Of a stretch of DNA of 13,779 bases, positions 1,650 through 11,657 are shown in pieces. The translations under genes and the position numbers were made by a program. How positions within the stretch are numbered: the first letter of the stretch is position 1; every line of letters starts with the position of its first letter. The stretch lies in the NCBI GenBank assembly GCA_905373195.1, contig CAJPSG010000006.1, positions 1-13,779 on the forward strand, in the 5' to 3' direction. The DNA is from Kingella oralis (GTDB taxonomy: Bacteria; Pseudomonadota; Gammaproteobacteria; Burkholderiales; Neisseriaceae). The notes beneath the pieces are model-generated. The model did no database searches and was not told the origin of the DNA. It worked only from the letters and a program-made list of their open reading frames with translations.

Positions 1650-1754
1650 TATAGTCGCTCCAATTAAGCCTTATACAGCGTTGGCTCGCCTTGCTGTACT
1701 ACTTGTACTATCTGCGGCTCGCCGCCTTGTATAAGACTGTGTGGAGCGACTATA
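1650..1754. mobile_element. Correia-like miniature inverted-repeat element, 105 bp
   Basis: The ends are perfect 13-bp inverted repeats, TATAGTCGCTCCA at 1650-1662 and its complement at 1742-1754. Inward they continue imperfectly (shared CTTATACA at +8 on one side and +7 on the other). The internal part has GCGTTGGCTCGCCTTG followed by a TGTACTACTTGTACTATCTG segment and GCGGCTCGCCGCCTTG. From memory this closely parallels the core of the neisserial Correia repeat enclosed element, short form, which is about 105 bp and starts TATAGTGGATTAA. The length, TATA ends and core agree, but the bases inside the TIR differ. Such elements have no transposase, insert at TA, and can carry promoters or RNase III sites. 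None of those functions is demonstrated here. Confidence 0.8.
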
Positions 1755-4052: not shown

Positions 4053-6155
4053 TTAGTAGCGCATTACGCTGGTTTCGCTGCCCATAATGCGAGGCGTAAT
4101 AAAGAACAGCAATTCGTTGCGGCTATTGTTGCGCGAACGTGTTTTAAACAAGTTCCCCAATACAGGCAAATCACCCAGCATAGGCACTTTTTTCACGTTA
4201 TTTTGAATCACTTCTTGATACACGCCGCCAACAACCAAAGTGCCACCATCTTCAATCATGGCTTGTGTTTTCACCGATTGTGTACGGATGCTTGGCTCGC
4301 CTTCTGAGCTTTGGTAAGTGTTATCAGGCGTATCTTTGTTAATGGTAACGTCCATAATAATCTTGTTATCAGGCGTAATGCGTGGCAACACTTTCAAGCT
4401 CATCACCGCATCTTTAAACGAAGTTGTGGTGCTGCCATCGCTATCGCGCGTGGTGTAAGGCACTTGATAACCTTGTTTAATTTCAGCTTCTTGGCGGTCT
4501 TGCGTTAGAACGCGAGGGGTAGAAATGGTTTTACTGCGACCTTCTGCTTCGGAAGCGGAGAGTTCCAAGCCTAAGACACCAGAGCTAAATGAACGCACAA
4601 CAGCAATTGAACCCACCGCAGCAGCCGCAGGAAGATTTACGTTAGGTGCAAATGGAATTCCATTAGATCTAGAGCTTCCACTTCCACCATAACGAGAATT
4701 TCGTTCAATACCATTATTCCAATTGTTACCCCATGAAGTACTACCATTACGACCAGCACCAAATTTCACACCCAATTCACGGGATAAGGTATCCGATGCT
4801 TCAACAATCCGCGCTTCCACCATCACTTGACGCGCAGGTACATCCAATTCCTCAATCAACGCATTGAATTTTTGGATAACGGATTTCACATCATTAACAA
4901 TCAATGTGTTGGTGGCAGGGTCAATCAACGCGCTGCCACGCGAAGTCAAGATAGAATTACTAGAACTGCCTGAGCTTCCATCAGAAATGCGCAGAATTTT
5001 CTTAAATTCTTCAACATTTTTATATTTCAATTGGAAACTTTGAGAAATTAACGGTCCCAAATCATCCAACTCTTTGCGCGCCGTTAATTCTGCTTTATCG
5101 CGTGCCAACATTTCAGCACGAGGCGCAACATTGATGATGTTGCCTACACGGCGCATATCCAATTCACGTGCATCCAAAATCAAATCCAACGCTTGATCCC
5201 AAGGCACATCTTTCAGAGAAAGTGTCATTTTGCCTTGCACGCTATCGCTGGCCACAATGTTCATGCCTGATTCTGTTGCCAAAATTTGCAAAACAGTTCG
5301 CACATCAACATTTTGGAAATCAAGAGAGATGCGTTTGCCTGTGAATTTTTGTTTGGTTTTATTCGCACCAATGCCCAATTCAGTAACATTTTTAGTTGGG
5401 GTAATTTGGATGCTTTGGCGACCATTTTTGCCTGTGATGGTATGTTTCCATGTGCCTTGGTTGCGCAGAGTGATTTGCGTATCGTTGCCCACACGGCGAA
5501 CACTAATTGTGCGAACAGGTGTAGAAAAATCTGTTACATCCAAATTGCGTTGCGCTTGTGCTGGCAATGGATAGTTTTTCAGCGTAATAACCACACGGTC
5601 GCTCTGTGAACGAACCTGAGGCTCCCCTGTGAAGTTTGATGAGAATTCAACCACACCAGAATTATTGCCACCTTTATGGAAATCAATATTGAAAGGAACA
5701 GAAGAAGAATAAGCATTTTGTGTTTGCGCACTTCTTGCGGCAGGAACAGCACTTACTGGCGCAGAATTAGATGAACTCGCTTCGCTCAGCTGAACCCATA
5801 CTTCATTACCTTTTACTTGAACATTGTATTGACCTTCTTGCCCCAACCCCAATAAAACGCGCGTATTGCCTTCGCCTTGTGCAGTTACAATTTGATTAAG
5901 CAAATTGTCATTGAATGTTAAAGTAGGTTGTTTTACTTTTAAATCTGTATTTGCAAAATCCAATGTAATGCGAGCAGGAGATGAAGTAATAAAACCAGTT
6001 GGCTCAACCGCATCTTTATTAAATTTAAATTTAATTACGCGCTGTTTGTTCGGCAAAACAGATACTTTAATATCGGTAATGCTGCCAGCATAAGCCACTT
6101 GTGCGAGCAGACCTGCTACAAGTGCTGATAAAACTTTTACTGAATTCTTTTTCAT
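4053..6155 (-). CDS. pilQ: Type IV pilus secretin PilQ
   Basis: This outer-membrane secretin multimer forms the pore through which the pilus passes and, in Neisseriaceae, through which transforming DNA enters. It has 700 residues. The signal peptide is about 1-23 (cut after AYA). Two AMIN domains (about 25-115 and 150-255) should bind peptidoglycan, joined by a Ser/Ala-rich linker. A secretin/TonB short N-terminal domain is at about 275-345, an N1/NolW-like domain at about 370-450, and the secretin core from about 450 to the end (VEARIVEAS; LLFFITPRIMG). The linker lacks the small basic PAKQQAA-type repeats known from meningococcal PilQ. A Gly/Ser/Asn-rich variable stretch (about 470-505) interrupts the core. 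I see no cysteine anywhere. AGAGG precedes the ATG by about 9 nt. It is the last pil gene of the operon. Confidence 0.96.
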   Translation of the reverse strand: MKKNSVKVLSALVAGLLAQVAYAGSITDIKVSVLPNKQRVIKFKFNKDAVEPTGFITSSPARITLDFANTDLKVKQPTLTFNDNLLNQIVTAQGEGNTRVLLGLGQEGQYNVQVKGNEVWVQLSEASSSNSAPVSAVPAARSAQTQNAYSSSVPFNIDFHKGGNNSGVVEFSSNFTGEPQVRSQSDRVVITLKNYPLPAQAQRNLDVTDFSTPVRTISVRRVGNDTQITLRNQGTWKHTITGKNGRQSIQITPTKNVTELGIGANKTKQKFTGKRISLDFQNVDVRTVLQILATESGMNIVASDSVQGKMTLSLKDVPWDQALDLILDARELDMRRVGNIINVAPRAEMLARDKAELTARKELDDLGPLISQSFQLKYKNVEEFKKILRISDGSSGSSSNSILTSRGSALIDPATNTLIVNDVKSVIQKFNALIEELDVPARQVMVEARIVEASDTLSRELGVKFGAGRNGSTSWGNNWNNGIERNSRYGGSGSSRSNGIPFAPNVNLPAAAAVGSIAVVRSFSSGVLGLELSASEAEGRSKTISTPRVLTQDRQEAEIKQGYQVPYTTRDSDGSTTTSFKDAVMSLKVLPRITPDNKIIMDVTINKDTPDNTYQSSEGEPSIRTQSVKTQAMIEDGGTLVVGGVYQEVIQNNVKKVPMLGDLPVLGNLFKTRSRNNSRNELLFFITPRIMGSETSVMRY

Positions 6156-6190
6156 AATTTAAGCCTCTTTAAAATTTACAATCTGATGAT

Positions 6191-6709
6191 TTATTTACCC
6201 AAGTTACCAGAATCATTTAAAACTATTTCTGCTTCCCTATTCGTCCAATTGCCTGATGCATCTTCAACTACTTCCACAACCTTAATGACATCAGGTGTAA
6301 TACGAACAATCCGACCAAAGTTTTGTCCCACATGATTACCAACATTAACGGTATAAACATGCCCTTCAACTTCAATCATTGCAGATAATGCTTTGCCAGC
6401 CCCAATTGAACCCACATAATTTAGATTTTCTAAACTATAATTTTCTAGCAATTCTTTAGGTCTATTCAAATCAGGTATTTGCGAATTTTGATAAGCTGCA
6501 CGCAATCTTGCTGTGCTAAACGCGTTAGGACCAGATACTTCTGGGGGGAAGTATGCAACTGGTTCTAATTTGGCAGGCTCTTCAACAGGGCGTACCTTGG
6601 TTTTCGCCTCTGCTTTCTTTTGCGTCATCCACTCTTGCACATTTCCACTCTCTTCTGAGCAAGCAGATAGCAAAATAATAGATGATAATAATAAAAGTTT
6701 TGCTTTCAT
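6191..6709 (-). CDS. pilP: Type IV pilus assembly lipoprotein PilP
   Basis: An inner-membrane lipoprotein that links the PilN/PilO complex to the periplasmic domains of PilQ. I chose the ATG at 6709 (172 aa) because AGGA lies 7 nt upstream. The ATG 6 nt earlier (6715) has only 1 nt of spacing. The signal sequence ends in the lipobox LLSAC, with the lipidated cysteine at 17. An extended, Pro- and charge-rich linker (about 25-65) leads to the folded beta domain, about 90-165 (LNYVGSIGAGKALSAMIEVEGHVYTVNVGNHVGQNFGRI). The length is normal for PilP. It lies 26 nt after pilO and 35 nt before pilQ in one transcription unit. Confidence 0.95.
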   Translation of the reverse strand: MKAKLLLLSSIILLSACSEESGNVQEWMTQKKAEAKTKVRPVEEPAKLEPVAYFPPEVSGPNAFSTARLRAAYQNSQIPDLNRPKELLENYSLENLNYVGSIGAGKALSAMIEVEGHVYTVNVGNHVGQNFGRIVRITPDVIKVVEVVEDASGNWTNREAEIVLNDSGNLGK

Positions 6710-6735
6710 TGTCATTTCCTATTCTTACACATTCA

Positions 6736-7362
6736 TTATTCTGCTTGGCTAGCAGCAGAAGCGGCTTTCGCTTCTTTGGAAAGATCTATGGCTTTATATG
6801 TATTAGCCGTCGCTGAAAGCGTTAGCTTACTGCCATCATCTTTTGCGGATTTATTCGCGCTTGTAAGATTGATATTAGCCAATGTAACAATACGAGACAT
6901 TTTGCCCACATCACGAATAAATTGAGAAAGCTGCTCATAGCTACCCGAAACTGAAATCGCAATCGGCAAACGCTCAATCGGTTTTTCTATCACAGACTCA
7001 CCAGGTGTTACATTGGTCATAGTTAGATTATTTTTAGCAGCCGCTTGGTGCAATTCTTGAATAAGCGTTGGAATTTCGGCAGTTGTTGGCAACTGTTTCA
7101 ACAACACATCCAAAGATGCCTCAATCAATTCCAATTCTTTTTTCAGATTGTCTAAGCTAGCAGCCTGAACACTTTTAGTTTCAAAGTCTGCTTTTAACCT
7201 AGTTTCTTCTTCTTGCTTCTCTTTGTATTCATCCCATTGCCCTTGGAATAATACAAAATAACCAGCAACCACAATAACAACTGCAACGATTGCCGCCAGC
7301 AAAAATTGCACTGCTTTGCTTTGCAAATGGAGTTTATCCCATTGAATTTCATTTAAATTCAT
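6736..7362 (-). CDS. pilO: Type IV pilus inner-membrane protein PilO
   Basis: PilO heterodimerises with PilN in the periplasm and forms the alignment subcomplex of the pilus machine. The ATG at 7362 (208 aa) is preceded by AAGGTGAT at ideal spacing, and that site overlaps the pilN stop. A GTG three codons earlier is less likely. A short cytoplasmic N-terminus is followed by one membrane segment at about 19-40 (VQFLLAAIVAVVIVVAGYFVLF), a Glu/Lys-rich coiled coil (about 45-90), and a ferredoxin-like periplasmic domain (about 95-190). The tail is Ala/Ser-rich. A 10-base DUS core (7160-7169) falls in the coiled-coil region. Confidence 0.95.
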   Translation of the reverse strand: MNLNEIQWDKLHLQSKAVQFLLAAIVAVVIVVAGYFVLFQGQWDEYKEKQEEETRLKADFETKSVQAASLDNLKKELELIEASLDVLLKQLPTTAEIPTLIQELHQAAAKNNLTMTNVTPGESVIEKPIERLPIAISVSGSYEQLSQFIRDVGKMSRIVTLANINLTSANKSAKDDGSKLTLSATANTYKAIDLSKEAKAASAASQAE

Positions 7363-7372
7363 TGTAATCACC

Positions 7373-8014
7373 TTATTCTGTTGTTGATGCCGCAGAAGCG
7401 GATGCGGATGTTTCCGTTGAGTTAGCAGATACGGAAGATTGGGTTCCTGTTATTTTTTTCTGCTCTAACAAATTCGCAGTTACCTTAAATTCTTGCCCAT
7501 TATCTGTTTTATTAATGCTATCCAACTTAGGGGTATCAAATACGCCTGTGCTAGGTAATGCAGTCATAAACATAGCAACTTTGTTATCGCTAATTGCTTT
7601 ACCTACCAAAGTATAGGTATTGCTAATTACTGCATCACTACCACCGATATTTTGAATACTTGTTAAATACGCACCCTCTGGAACAAGTTGGTTTACAGTA
7701 TCAACAATTCGAGCACCCTCAAATCGTTTGTTATCCAATTCTTCAACTTTTTGTTTACGCTCCAAGAAACTTTGTTTTTGCGCTTGCAAATCTCTAACTT
7801 TTACAATTTGCGCATCAAGCTCTTTGATACCCGCATTCAGCTCTTCGTTTCTGCCTTCTTGGTTTGTTATCAAGGCTGCCAACGCACCCCAAATTAAGAA
7901 TGCTGCAACACCACCTGCTATCACGCCACCAGCCATAACCAACTGAAATCGTTTCTTTTGCTTTTGCTCTAATATCTCGCGATATGGCAATAAGTTAATT
8001 TTAATTAAGTTCAT
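7373..8014 (-). CDS. pilN: Type IV pilus inner-membrane protein PilN
   Basis: This protein connects cytoplasmic PilM to the periplasmic PilO/PilP assembly. It has 213 residues. The cytoplasmic N-terminus carries the conserved PilM-binding motif INLLPYRE (6-13), then a basic stretch and a membrane segment at about 27-50. A coiled coil (about 52-95) and the periplasmic ferredoxin-like domain follow. The Ser/Thr/Ala-rich tail (about 185-213) looks disordered. GAGAGGG precedes the ATG by about 9 nt, overlapping the end of pilM. Only 1 nt separates the two genes, so translation is probably coupled. Confidence 0.95.
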   Translation of the reverse strand: MNLIKINLLPYREILEQKQKKRFQLVMAGGVIAGGVAAFLIWGALAALITNQEGRNEELNAGIKELDAQIVKVRDLQAQKQSFLERKQKVEELDNKRFEGARIVDTVNQLVPEGAYLTSIQNIGGSDAVISNTYTLVGKAISDNKVAMFMTALPSTGVFDTPKLDSINKTDNGQEFKVTANLLEQKKITGTQSSVSANSTETSASASAASTTE

Positions 8015-8015
8015 T

Positions 8016-9119
8016 TTATACTAACCCTCTCAAAGCCAAACCAAATGCTGTTGTTAATGATGCGGCATCTTTTTCAAATCGTGCGCCATCACCTTTTAGC
8101 TTGTTGATTGCAAAAGAAGCTGGATTTAATTGCTCTGTTGCAATATTTGTTTGCGCATACACCACTTCGGAAATGCCTGGCGCTGCACAACCGCTACCAC
8201 TAATGTAAATATGTTTAACATTAGACATGCTATCCATATTTTGTGTTGCATAGAAGAACTGCATTACACGTTGAACTTCTTGCGCGATTTGCGCATTAAA
8301 GCCATCTACCACCATTGCTTTATAATCATCAGGACGCTTCATTTCGCCTGTAATCATGGCTAATGCCTCGCCATCTGTTACTTGATAAGCGCGTTGCACA
8401 GATTGCACCAATTGCTCCAAACCGAAATTGCTTTCTTGTTTATAGAGAATCTGCCCATTTTCTACAATTAAGGCTTTTAATACCGTATCGCCAATATCAA
8501 ATAACGCAATACGCTGACGACCAAAACTGTCGCCGTTTTGCATATCTGCGTAAGCAAAAGCATTGGCAACGGCGAAAATATCCACATCAACATTAGAGGC
8601 GTTGATGCCTACTTCATCCAGTAAATCCGTTGCGCGCTCAACCGCTTCTTTTTTCGCCGCCACCATTAAAACGGTTTGTTCGCTACCCGGATTGCCTGAC
8701 AAAACCTGCCAGTCGTAATTCATTTCATCAAGAGAACCAATATTTGCCACTTCTAACTCAACAAACTCTTGCAGCGTCATATTGCTGCCTTCTGGCACAA
8801 AGCGTAAATTTTCCTCAATGGTTACTGCGCTTGCAGGCAATGCAATGTTGGCTTGCTTACAATTTGTTTTCATTTTGCTGTAACATTGTTGCAAATGAGA
8901 GACAAGTTGGTCAAAATCTATCACTTCGCCACCTGCAACCACATTGGCAGGCAGCGTAGTAATCGCATATTTTTCAAGCTGAACTTGGCTTAATTGACGA
9001 CCAGATAGTTGCACCATACGAATATGGCTAGGGCTAATGTCCACACCAATGACGCTACGCCCTGATGTAGCCATAGCTTTCTTATTACTGGTTTTTTTTT
9101 CGGTTTTCTTTGAGCGCAT
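8016..9119 (-). CDS. pilM: Type IV pilus actin-like ATPase-fold protein PilM
   Basis: A cytoplasmic actin/FtsA-like protein that binds ATP and the PilN N-terminal tail, giving the machine its inner ring. It has 367 residues. A Lys-rich N-terminal extension (1-20) precedes SVIGVDISPSHIRMVQL (phosphate-1 region, GVDIS at 25-29). FDIGDTVLKAL is the phosphate-2 region, and IYISGSGCAAPG near the C-terminus is the adenosine-binding motif. AAGGAC lies 7 nt upstream of the ATG. Nine consecutive A (9092-9100, minus strand) encode part of the N-terminal lysine patch and could be a slippage site. It is the first gene of the leftward pil operon and is divergent from ponA. Confidence 0.95.
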   Translation of the reverse strand: MRSKKTEKKTSNKKAMATSGRSVIGVDISPSHIRMVQLSGRQLSQVQLEKYAITTLPANVVAGGEVIDFDQLVSHLQQCYSKMKTNCKQANIALPASAVTIEENLRFVPEGSNMTLQEFVELEVANIGSLDEMNYDWQVLSGNPGSEQTVLMVAAKKEAVERATDLLDEVGINASNVDVDIFAVANAFAYADMQNGDSFGRQRIALFDIGDTVLKALIVENGQILYKQESNFGLEQLVQSVQRAYQVTDGEALAMITGEMKRPDDYKAMVVDGFNAQIAQEVQRVMQFFYATQNMDSMSNVKHIYISGSGCAAPGISEVVYAQTNIATEQLNPASFAINKLKGDGARFEKDAASLTTAFGLALRGLV

Positions 9120-9263
9120 GATTTAAGTCCTTACCTAACGCATAAAACATTTATAATGTCATTTGTCGCTTTGGTTTTCATCCAATAACAAATTCATTGC
9201 GATATTTTACTTTATTTAAAAAAACACATGGCGATTTTGTGCATTATCGCTGCGAGAAATTTT
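9120..9263. promoter_or_regulatory. Divergent intergenic region pilM/ponA
   Basis: These 144 A/T-rich bases should carry promoters for both directions. A perfect TATAAT sits at 9152-9157 on the + strand, and the overlapping minus-strand TATAAA lies about 35 nt before the pilM ATG. I see no good -35 hexamer at 16-18 nt for either, so the exact promoters are unassigned. GAGAA precedes the ponA ATG as a weak ribosome site. Confidence 0.4.
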
Positions 9264-11657
9264 ATGATTAAGAAATTGATTACGACGTTTTTGGGGCTGT
9301 TATTAGGTTTATTCCTATTTGCGGTCGGTTTGGTGACTGTTGCAATTTTAGTCACATACCCCAAACTCCCGCCGCTTGATGCGGTAAAATATTACCAACC
9401 ACACGAGCCTTTAACGATTTATTCGTCCGAAGGGGTGGTGATTGGTTCTTATGGTGATGAGAAACGCGCCTTTACGCCTATTGACCAATTTCCCGAGGTT
9501 TTGAAAAACGCGGTGATTGCAGCGGAAGACAAGCGTTTCCGCGAACACTGGGGCGTGGATGTGATTGGTGTGATTCGCGCGGCAATCAGCAATGCGTCTG
9601 GCGGCGCAAAACAAGGGGCAAGTACGATTACGCAGCAAGTGGCGCGTAATTTTTATTTGACCAACGAGCGCACGATGACGCGCAAATTCAATGAAGCCTT
9701 ATTGGCTTACAAAATTGAAAAAACGCTGACCAAAGACCAAATTTTGGAACTGTATTTCAACCAAATTTATTTGGGACAACGCGCTTATGGTTTCGCTTCG
9801 GCGGCGAAAGTGTATTTCAATAAAGAAGTGCGCGATTTAACGCTGGCGGAAGCCACTATTTTGGCGGGGCTGCCCAAAGCGCCTTCTACCTTTAACCCGA
9901 TTGTGAACCCCGAGCGTGCGCGTTTGCGTCAAGAGTATATTTTGAACAATATGGTGGAATTGAACATGATTACACCAGCCGAGCGCACGGCGGCGTTAAA
10001 TGAGCAATTAACGTATGAGCGTTATCGCGTGGATGTGGACCAAAATTCGTTGTATGTGGCGGAAATGGCGCGTCAAGAACTGTTTGAACGCTATGGCGAA
10101 GATGCGTACACCAAAGGTTTGAAGGTTTACACCACCGTGAGCGTGGCAAACCAAAAAGCGGCAACGACTGCACTGCGCAACACTTTGCGCAGTTTGAGCG
10201 CGGGGCGTGCTTATGCGGGTGCGGAACAGCAGTTGGATTTTAGCTCGGTTGAACCCGAAGACATTGAAGATGCGGCGGAGCAATTTCTTGCCAACACTTA
10301 TACCGTTGAGGGGATGGTGCCTGCGGTGGTGATTGAAGCGGGCAAACAGGGGATTGTGGCTTATATGCAAGGGGGCAAAAAGGCGACTTTGAAAATAGGC
10401 GACATGGGCATCGCGCGCAACGCCATCGGCAATAAAAAACTGGGCGACAAGGCAATTAAAGTTGGCTCGGTGATTCGCATCATGAAATTGAAAAACGGCA
10501 GTTGGACGGTTACACAGCAGCCTGAAATTCAAGGCGCGCTGGTTTCTATTGATGCGCAAACGGGCGCGGTGCAGGCTTTGGTGGGCGGTTATGATTTCCA
10601 CAGCAAGACGTTTAACCGTGCAACGCAAAGTATGCGCCAGCCTGGTTCTGCCTTTAAGCCGTTTGTTTACTCGGCGGCGCTGTCCAAAGGCTTTACTGCT
10701 TCTACGCTGGTAAACGATGCGCCGATTACGATTCGTGGCTGGTCGCCGCAAAACTCGGACGGCACTTATTCGGGCATGATTACGCTGCGCCAAGCCTTAA
10801 CGTGGTCTAAAAACACGGTATCGGTGCGGATTGCGCAAGCGATGGGCGTGAGCTATTTGCGCGCTTATGTGCAACGCTTTGGCTTTACAGCAGACCAAAT
10901 CCCGCCTGCGCTGTCTATTGCGCTGGGCACGGCTTCGGTTACGCCGATGCAAATGGCGGAAGGCTATGCTGTGTTTGCCAACGGCGGCTACAAAGTTGCC
11001 CATTATGTGATTGATAAGATTTACGACAGCAAAGACAATTTGCGCGCCGAAATGCAGCCTTTGGTGGCGGGCAAAACCGCGCCGCAAGTGATTGACCCGC
11101 GCAATGCTTATGTGATGACTTCTCTCTTGCACGACGTTGCCACCAAAGGCACGGGCGCGGCAACCAACGCGCTCGGTCGCAGCGATATTGCGGGCAAAAC
11201 GGGTACCACCAACGACTTTAAAGACGCTTGGTTTGTGGGCTACACGCCCAAAATCGTAACCGCTGTTTACATTGGCTACGACAAACCGCGCACGATTGGC
11301 AAAAGCGCGTTTGGTGGCAAAATCGCTCTGCCCGTTTGGATGAACTATATGCGCTTTGCTCTCAAAGGCAAGCCTGTGAGCAAGTTTGTTGAACCCAAAG
11401 GCGTGGTAAAACGCGACGGCGAAGTGTATTTGAAAGAACGCCAAACCACCGACGAGCACTTGCCGTTGGACAACACCACCGACCAACCCGAAGTGGTGCG
11501 TCCGCTGAACCCGCCCAAAGCGCAAGAGCAAGACTTGTCGCCTGTTGATAACGACAGCGGCGCGGGCGAGCGCGAATTGCGCCCTGTGCAAAGCAACACG
11601 CCCAGCCGTAGCCGCAGCACTGGCGATGACGCAGCCAACGCATTTTTTGAAGATTAG
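9264..11657 (+). CDS. ponA: Penicillin-binding protein 1A (class A, bifunctional)
   Basis: An inner-membrane enzyme that polymerises lipid II glycan strands and cross-links stem peptides. With the ATG at 9264 the protein has 797 residues and starts MIKKLITTFLG like Neisseria PonA. The upstream 12-codon extension lacks a ribosome site. A membrane anchor is at about 4-32. The glycosyltransferase domain (about 55-230) includes AAEDKRF with catalytic E88, GASTITQQVARNF, and the ILELYFNQIYLGQRAYG block. The transpeptidase domain has SAFK (462-465, nucleophile S462), a SKN motif in TWSKNTVS, and KTGT at 645-648. The last about 90 residues are Pro/Ser/Asp-rich and probably disordered. A 10-base DUS core at 10517-10526 encodes QPE. 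It is transcribed away from pilM, as in Neisseria, and ends at a strong terminator. Confidence 0.96.
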   Translation: MIKKLITTFLGLLLGLFLFAVGLVTVAILVTYPKLPPLDAVKYYQPHEPLTIYSSEGVVIGSYGDEKRAFTPIDQFPEVLKNAVIAAEDKRFREHWGVDVIGVIRAAISNASGGAKQGASTITQQVARNFYLTNERTMTRKFNEALLAYKIEKTLTKDQILELYFNQIYLGQRAYGFASAAKVYFNKEVRDLTLAEATILAGLPKAPSTFNPIVNPERARLRQEYILNNMVELNMITPAERTAALNEQLTYERYRVDVDQNSLYVAEMARQELFERYGEDAYTKGLKVYTTVSVANQKAATTALRNTLRSLSAGRAYAGAEQQLDFSSVEPEDIEDAAEQFLANTYTVEGMVPAVVIEAGKQGIVAYMQGGKKATLKIGDMGIARNAIGNKKLGDKAIKVGSVIRIMKLKNGSWTVTQQPEIQGALVSIDAQTGAVQALVGGYDFHSKTFNRATQSMRQPGSAFKPFVYSAALSKGFTASTLVNDAPITIRGWSPQNSDGTYSGMITLRQALTWSKNTVSVRIAQAMGVSYLRAYVQRFGFTADQIPPALSIALGTASVTPMQMAEGYAVFANGGYKVAHYVIDKIYDSKDNLRAEMQPLVAGKTAPQVIDPRNAYVMTSLLHDVATKGTGAATNALGRSDIAGKTGTTNDFKDAWFVGYTPKIVTAVYIGYDKPRTIGKSAFGGKIALPVWMNYMRFALKGKPVSKFVEPKGVVKRDGEVYLKERQTTDEHLPLDNTTDQPEVVRPLNPPKAQEQDLSPVDNDSGAGERELRPVQSNTPSRSRSTGDDAANAFFED

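Follow-up and report, generated by a model that had tools for sequence, protein, structure and literature searches.

The element described here lies between two convergent genes of the window, by which we mean the whole 13,779-nt stretch of Kingella oralis DNA that was analysed. It starts 102 bp past a methyladenine-glycosylase (tag-like) gene, which ends at position 1547, and its right edge is 61 bp short of position 1816, where a ProQ/FinO-family (proQ-like) gene ends. The Pfam check of the window genes covered earP, tag, proQ, aroB and aroK only. The open reading frames at 4053-11657 resemble, by eye, an operon of the pilM-Q type and a gene for a penicillin-binding protein. Rfam gave no match in the window. 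The parts of the element are listed in Table 1.

Table 1. Parts of the Correia-core element, in window coordinates.
Feature	Position	Strand	Remarks
Correia-core MITE	1650..1754	+	105 bp counting flanking TA pairs
Left terminal inverted repeat TATAGTCGCTCCA	1650..1662	+	outer TA at 1650-1651 is the presumed target duplication
Left arm, inner part	1663..1673	+	runs to TAC at core start
Correia core, 58 bp	1674..1731	+	51/58 identical to L185; core model R1
Central dyad GTAC-N5-GTAC of core	1696..1708		covaries among relatives; neighbouring TA is a recurrent nested-insertion site in relatives
Right arm, inner part	1732-1741		1-nt shorter ACACAG form
Right terminal inverted repeat TATAGTCGCTCCA	1742..1754	-	outer TA at 1753-1754

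The unit has the general properties of a MITE: it is short, ends in inverted terminal repeats and is without a transposase gene. TA stands on both sides of it. The open reading frames that cross it in the six frames extend past it and include no transposase. A search for TATAGTCGCTCCA allowing up to two mismatches gave two sites in the window, both belonging to this inverted pair, and two or more matches were found in 0 of 200 shuffles. The same pair emerged from a repeat search of the window (13 nt, 100% complementary, arms 79 nt apart). Folded as RNA, the element strand reached -46.3 kcal/mol (z -6.13), a value equalled by 0 of 200 shuffles.

The first-pass annotation had described a unit of 105 bp whose 13-bp ends repeat each other perfectly, with core motifs CTCGCC...TGTACTA...CGCCTTG, all of which are present in the sequence as claimed, and had called it a Correia-like element. 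Compared by blastn with the classical Correia element L185, the core, which reads GCGTTG-GCTCGCCTTGC-TGTACTACTTGTACTATCTGCGGC-TCGCCGCCTTG in the same order, was identical at 51 of 58 positions, and records of N. gonorrhoeae matched it at 93-95%. The best match of the 105-bp unit among 122 related elements scored 101 bits, whereas none of its 200 shuffles exceeded 26.5 bits; the relationship held against shuffled controls, as the annotation had asked. The unit thus has the characteristic core of the Correia element (CREE, nemis), and it resembles the short form in length and in its TATA ends; the size classes given in the accessible text of PMC2649163 are 104-108 and 153-157 bp. Neither element codes for protein. 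The ends are different. The 26-bp Correia repeat (TATAG[CT]GGATTAA...; TATAGTGGATTAA...) is absent from the ends of the unit, which read TATAGTCGCTCCA..., and the AGTAC/AGGAC asymmetry carried by Correia arms is likewise missing from its arms. Since the core matches and the ends do not, the unit is homologous to Correia elements through its core and lacks their defining repeat. It is a Correia-core MITE with an end type of its own.

The annotation had read the unit as a Correia element with replaced ends that diverged in the Kingella lineage, and as far as the conserved core and the unfamiliar ends go this description was right. It was too narrow, as the same pattern is much wider. At an E value of 0.001 the 105-bp unit matched 45 of the 83 Neisseriaceae genomes searched, mostly within the core, and a TATA-core-TATA pattern matched 36 of 83 (with some elements counted twice), compared with 0 of 83 for the reversed-pattern control. 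Elements extracted from 40 genomes and the window numbered 122. Core and arms were compared in 40 rows, one for the window and one for each of 39 genomes with both arms good (G020 was dropped by the arm-match limit). Mean pairwise identity was 92% for a 31-nt stretch of the core and 46% for arm positions 7-24. The left arm nevertheless agreed with the right arm of its own element (0.89, against 0.51 for the right arms of other genomes), and this was reached in 0 of 5000 permutations. Because the elements had been found through the core, genome G047 was sampled by ends alone as a check for bias, and the core was present in 20 of the 20 fetched 106-bp end pairs. Ends differ in most of the 40 genomes and are thus not a peculiarity of Kingella. 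Judged from these sequence comparisons, the Correia-core elements are a wider MITE family, with a core of approximately 58 bp and arms that match each other within an element and differ between genomes. One element of G047 (L282) is a hybrid with one arm from each of two end types, which suggests recombination through the core. The 1-nt shorter right arm with ACACA found at 1732-1754 in the window occurs at the same place in L107, L278 and L105; the elements with this form, the window unit included, have four different end types.

By its ends the window unit belongs with a subfamily of the TATAGTCG[TC]T[TC]CA type, which had 182 sites in G047 and from 2 to 14 in each of seven further genomes searched. 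Elements with these ends in G047 fall into a 106-bp class and a 153-154-bp class, the longer form being 72.6% identical to N. gonorrhoeae over 154/156 bases; both Correia length classes therefore exist with ends of this type. The exact 13-mer TATAGTCGCTCCA was found at five places in 3 of the 83 Neisseriaceae genomes, one of which (in G074) was a single end without a core. As an exact end pair with a gap of 63-93 nt it had 0 matches in the genome contigs and 0 in the viral contigs.

Evidence for the target of insertion came from nested copies. TA stands on either side of the nested insert in L146, L393 and L394 (all G047) and in L399 (G063), where the insert has TATAGTCGTTTCA/TATAGTCGTTCCA ends; in L150 the right flank of the insert is TG instead of TA. 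The TA beside the core centre was a recurrent site of nested insertion, found at eight places by pattern (L284, L287, L390, L393, L394, L399, L405 and L410) and at further ones by eye (also L146, L150 and L223). The inserts at this TA were core elements or an IS630, as in L223, where an IS630 left end sits in a core. The comparison count was made for one other site inside the element (L397, L412, L418, L419) and gives no insertion rate. The target duplication presumed for the window copy is taken from these nested copies elsewhere and not from an empty site of its own: none was found among the 83 Neisseriaceae genomes, in which the tag-like and proQ-like genes match at separate places, and the gene order around the element was matched in none of the genomes searched.

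The centre of the core, GTAY-N5-RTAC, covaries. Both sides were changed in 11 of 123 cores (found in G006, G030, G056, G063, G064, G066 and G067), compared with 1.07 expected if the two sides varied independently, a figure uncorrected for kinship. The centre could be a dyad to which a protein binds, the tip of a hairpin or a favoured target.

The annotation had further proposed that the ends diverged together with the transposase that mobilises the element. Ends that change with a resident IS630-family transposase were seen in other genomes. DDE_3 (PF13358), searched in two sets of 14 and 36 genomes, matched 9 and 16 of them, respectively, with 15 of the latter 16 above the cut-off. From alignments of their copies, several elements of ~880-1125 bp with TATA-type ends were delimited, and NCBIfam (NF033545) assigns these to the IS630 family. 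These elements and their MITEs have the TATA-type ends and TA flanks of the core elements, and in several genomes their arms are closely similar to those of the core elements; the IS ends seen, in contrast, did not include the core. The likeness of IS ends to the MITE arms of the same genome, totalled for 10 IS types, came to 214.5. With genome labels shuffled it was 153.8 (sd 16.5), and the observed level was reached in 1 of 10,000 permutations, which take no account of kinship between genomes. The score left out the IS type of G055, which had no MITE in the set, those of G006 and G028, and other IS copies. Only four of the ten types ranked their own genome first (T01, T04, T10 and T11); for the others it ranked at best 3rd (T03), 6th (T05), 9th (T02), 14th (T07), 18th (T09) and 37th (T06), and neither of the IS types of G051 fits the MITEs of that genome. 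Clear own-genome matches were seen by eye in G005, G013, G041, G059 and G085.

In the IS630 elements of commensal Neisseria (G019 and relatives) the left end reads ...AGTACA and the right end ...AGGACA. The classical Correia arms (...AGTACGG and ...AGGACAA) likewise have AGTAC on one side and AGGAC on the other, at the same offset. DNA of this commensal IS630 matched 20 of the 83 genomes at 1e-10; G017, G021 and G036, for example, have classical Correia ends yet gave no match to it. Two N. gonorrhoeae records (NZ_CP119142.1 and NZ_CP119140.1) contained it at 91.5-91.6% identity, in nine places each, and the one place inspected (L445) was split by a Correia-like insert of ~154 bp ending in TATAGCGGATTAA. 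Both records are labelled plasmids and are ~2.17 Mb, that is, chromosome-sized.

For the window ends, no such partner was found. The annotation had advised looking for an IS whose ends resemble TATAGTCGCTCCA; none turned up, and DDE_3 matched 0 of the 8 genomes with the closest end type, to which the partner search was limited. When compared with the IS types of the first matrix, the arms of the window unit scored no higher than 10.5, which most own-genome pairs exceed. Among the 100 of 182 sites listed for G047, no end pair of IS length lacked a closer partner by eye, and one 714-bp combination of ends encloses a closer 153-bp pair. By eye, 19 single-end stretches in the same genome have a core (mostly reversed) or a nested element beside the end, although a script reading one strand flagged the core in just 4 of the 19. 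Ends in common with an autonomous IS630, by which a MITE of that family would be recognised, were found for core elements of other genomes (e.g. G005, G013, G059 and G085) and not for those of the window unit. This weakens the claim for the unit, although a partner may exist outside the 8 genomes.

The core also reaches beyond the Neisseriaceae, which again does not fit a divergence confined to the Kingella lineage. A core model (R1) built from 15 rows matched 78 of 399 Burkholderiales genomes at 1e-4, at least 9 of the 78 being within the 83 Neisseriaceae genomes. A search of 369 genomes drawn from the class, with an E limit of 1e-5 and stricter filters, gave three matching genomes, of which two also belong to the order set. 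Cupriavidus metallidurans CH34 carries a core with AGAGGCGCTATCAAAATGA ends. Flanking inverted repeats exceeded all 40 flank shuffles at 14 of 24 mostly non-neisserial loci and did not at the other 10. Phage and E. coli collections gave no core match at E 0.01, and a match to a Streptococcus suis plasmid (81%, E 6e-4, beside IS1216) was set aside as possibly due to chance.

In Chromobacterium and relatives, MITEs with the homologous core are 112-114 bp long and, unlike the window unit, have GACCCGCTAACAAAAC ends. Ends like these were present in 15 of the 15 copies listed for Chromobacterium haemolyticum (G004); 13 of these 15 have identical 3-bp flanks, TAA or TTA. At five loci in this genome the same GACCCGCTAACAAAAC-like ends, with TWA before them, lie ~40 bp beyond the ends of IS5-family transposases, one end being seen for each element because the contigs stop before the second. 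Given IS630 ends in Neisseriaceae and IS5 ends in Chromobacterium, the transposase families whose ends enclose this one core number at least two. This wider pattern is the most interesting result, and its support is at the level of sequence only. Other end classes around the core are ACAAAA-like and GGAAGCGTTTGCAAAATGA-like (L316, L321, L322 and L332); the flanking repeats of L321 do not exceed its shuffles.

Taken together, the window unit is probably a non-autonomous Correia-core MITE of a family whose arms in Neisseriaceae are the ends of IS630-family transposases and whose core is kept. These transposases, which are Tc1/mariner-like and target TA, would bind and cleave the arms in trans, and the element would move by cut-and-paste with duplication of TA. 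When the ends of the resident transposase change, the arms would change too and the core would stay. The window copy, with an end of the TATAGTCG[TC]T[TC]CA type, would have landed at a TA between the two convergent genes. As a side effect, such a copy could give both flanking transcripts a strong 3'-terminal hairpin, which RNase III might process; such processing has been reported for Correia elements. A broader account, which we consider evenly balanced between right and wrong, is that the Correia core is tied to no particular transposase and acts as a module of Burkholderiales, joined more than once to the ends of unrelated transposase families (IS630 with TA, IS5 with TWA) and to further end classes. 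Selection would then act on the core, the ends would be exchangeable adaptors to the resident transposase, exchanged by way of the central TA and recombination through the core, and the neisserial Correia elements would be one branch, with the commensal Neisseria IS630 as mobiliser.

It is possible, though doubtful, that there was only gradual co-evolution, in which one Correia and one IS630 lineage drifted together by point mutation with no capture or exchange of ends. Related genomes do have similar arms, and the steps TCGTTTCA, TCGTTCCA and TCGCTCCA coexist in G047, as such drift predicts. The same genome, however, has several end types and the two-armed hybrid L282, and drift from TA-flanked IS630 ends leaves the IS5 ends and TWA flanks of Chromobacterium and other Burkholderiales unexplained. 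Covariation of the arms within elements, the covarying central dyad and the folding of the strand, far better than that of its shuffles, would also suit arms maintained as host RNA or DNA hairpins (RNase III sites or terminators), with the likeness to IS630 a by-product of AT-rich, TA-flanked ends. We consider this unlikely: transposase ends predict arm covariation equally, likeness to the IS630 ends of the same genome exceeds that for shuffled labels, and a left/right asymmetry is common to the arms and the IS.

The occurrence of the core within several end classes, and the cores without an inverted repeat above shuffles (L327, L329, L333 and L083), could be explained if the core were mobile by itself, a small unit entering MITEs that are already in place; the ends would then be those of the target. 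No core was seen to interrupt an otherwise intact known element, and the nested cases run in the opposite direction, with whole MITEs inserted into cores; this explanation too is improbable. That the unit is a chance or ordinary terminator-like palindrome with no relation to Correia elements is hardly credible. The sequence is short and the exact end pair had no copy in the genome contigs, but the bit score lies far outside the range of the shuffles and the reversed pattern found nothing in the genomes where the TATA-core-TATA pattern was common.

A comparable case, by description and not by sequence, is RUP of Streptococcus pneumoniae, likewise a TA-sited MITE, of 107 bp. We know of no RUP core that is common to other end types, and to our knowledge MITEs do not usually combine a conserved interior with ends that are exchangeable. 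The combination raises the question of the role of the core. The accessible text of PMC2229807 describes RUP as a MITE of IS630-Spn1, thought to be moved by the IS630 transposase. For Correia elements, that of PMC2649163 states that the repeat has been found only in Neisseria so far and that the mobilising mechanism is undetermined, and PMC9778887, in its accessible part, lists IS5, IS30, IS110 and IS1595 but no IS630 for gonococci and meningococci. The comparison of ends names a candidate mobiliser, the IS630 of commensal Neisseria, which is also present, interrupted, in N. gonorrhoeae. A literature search that covered few of the subscription journals found no publication in which Correia elements are connected with IS630 or with Chromobacterium. 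Published Correia search patterns are based on the element ends, as far as the accessible text of PMC2911385 describes them, and surveys of this kind would miss relatives such as the window unit.

The window also contains 17 copies of AGGCAGCCTGAA in its 13.8 kb, which we take to be kingDUS and which is likely a DNA uptake sequence of the Kingella oralis or Simonsiella type. According to the accessible text of PMC3630211, in which the 12-mer itself does not appear, kingDUS is present in Kingella oralis and Simonsiella muelleri.
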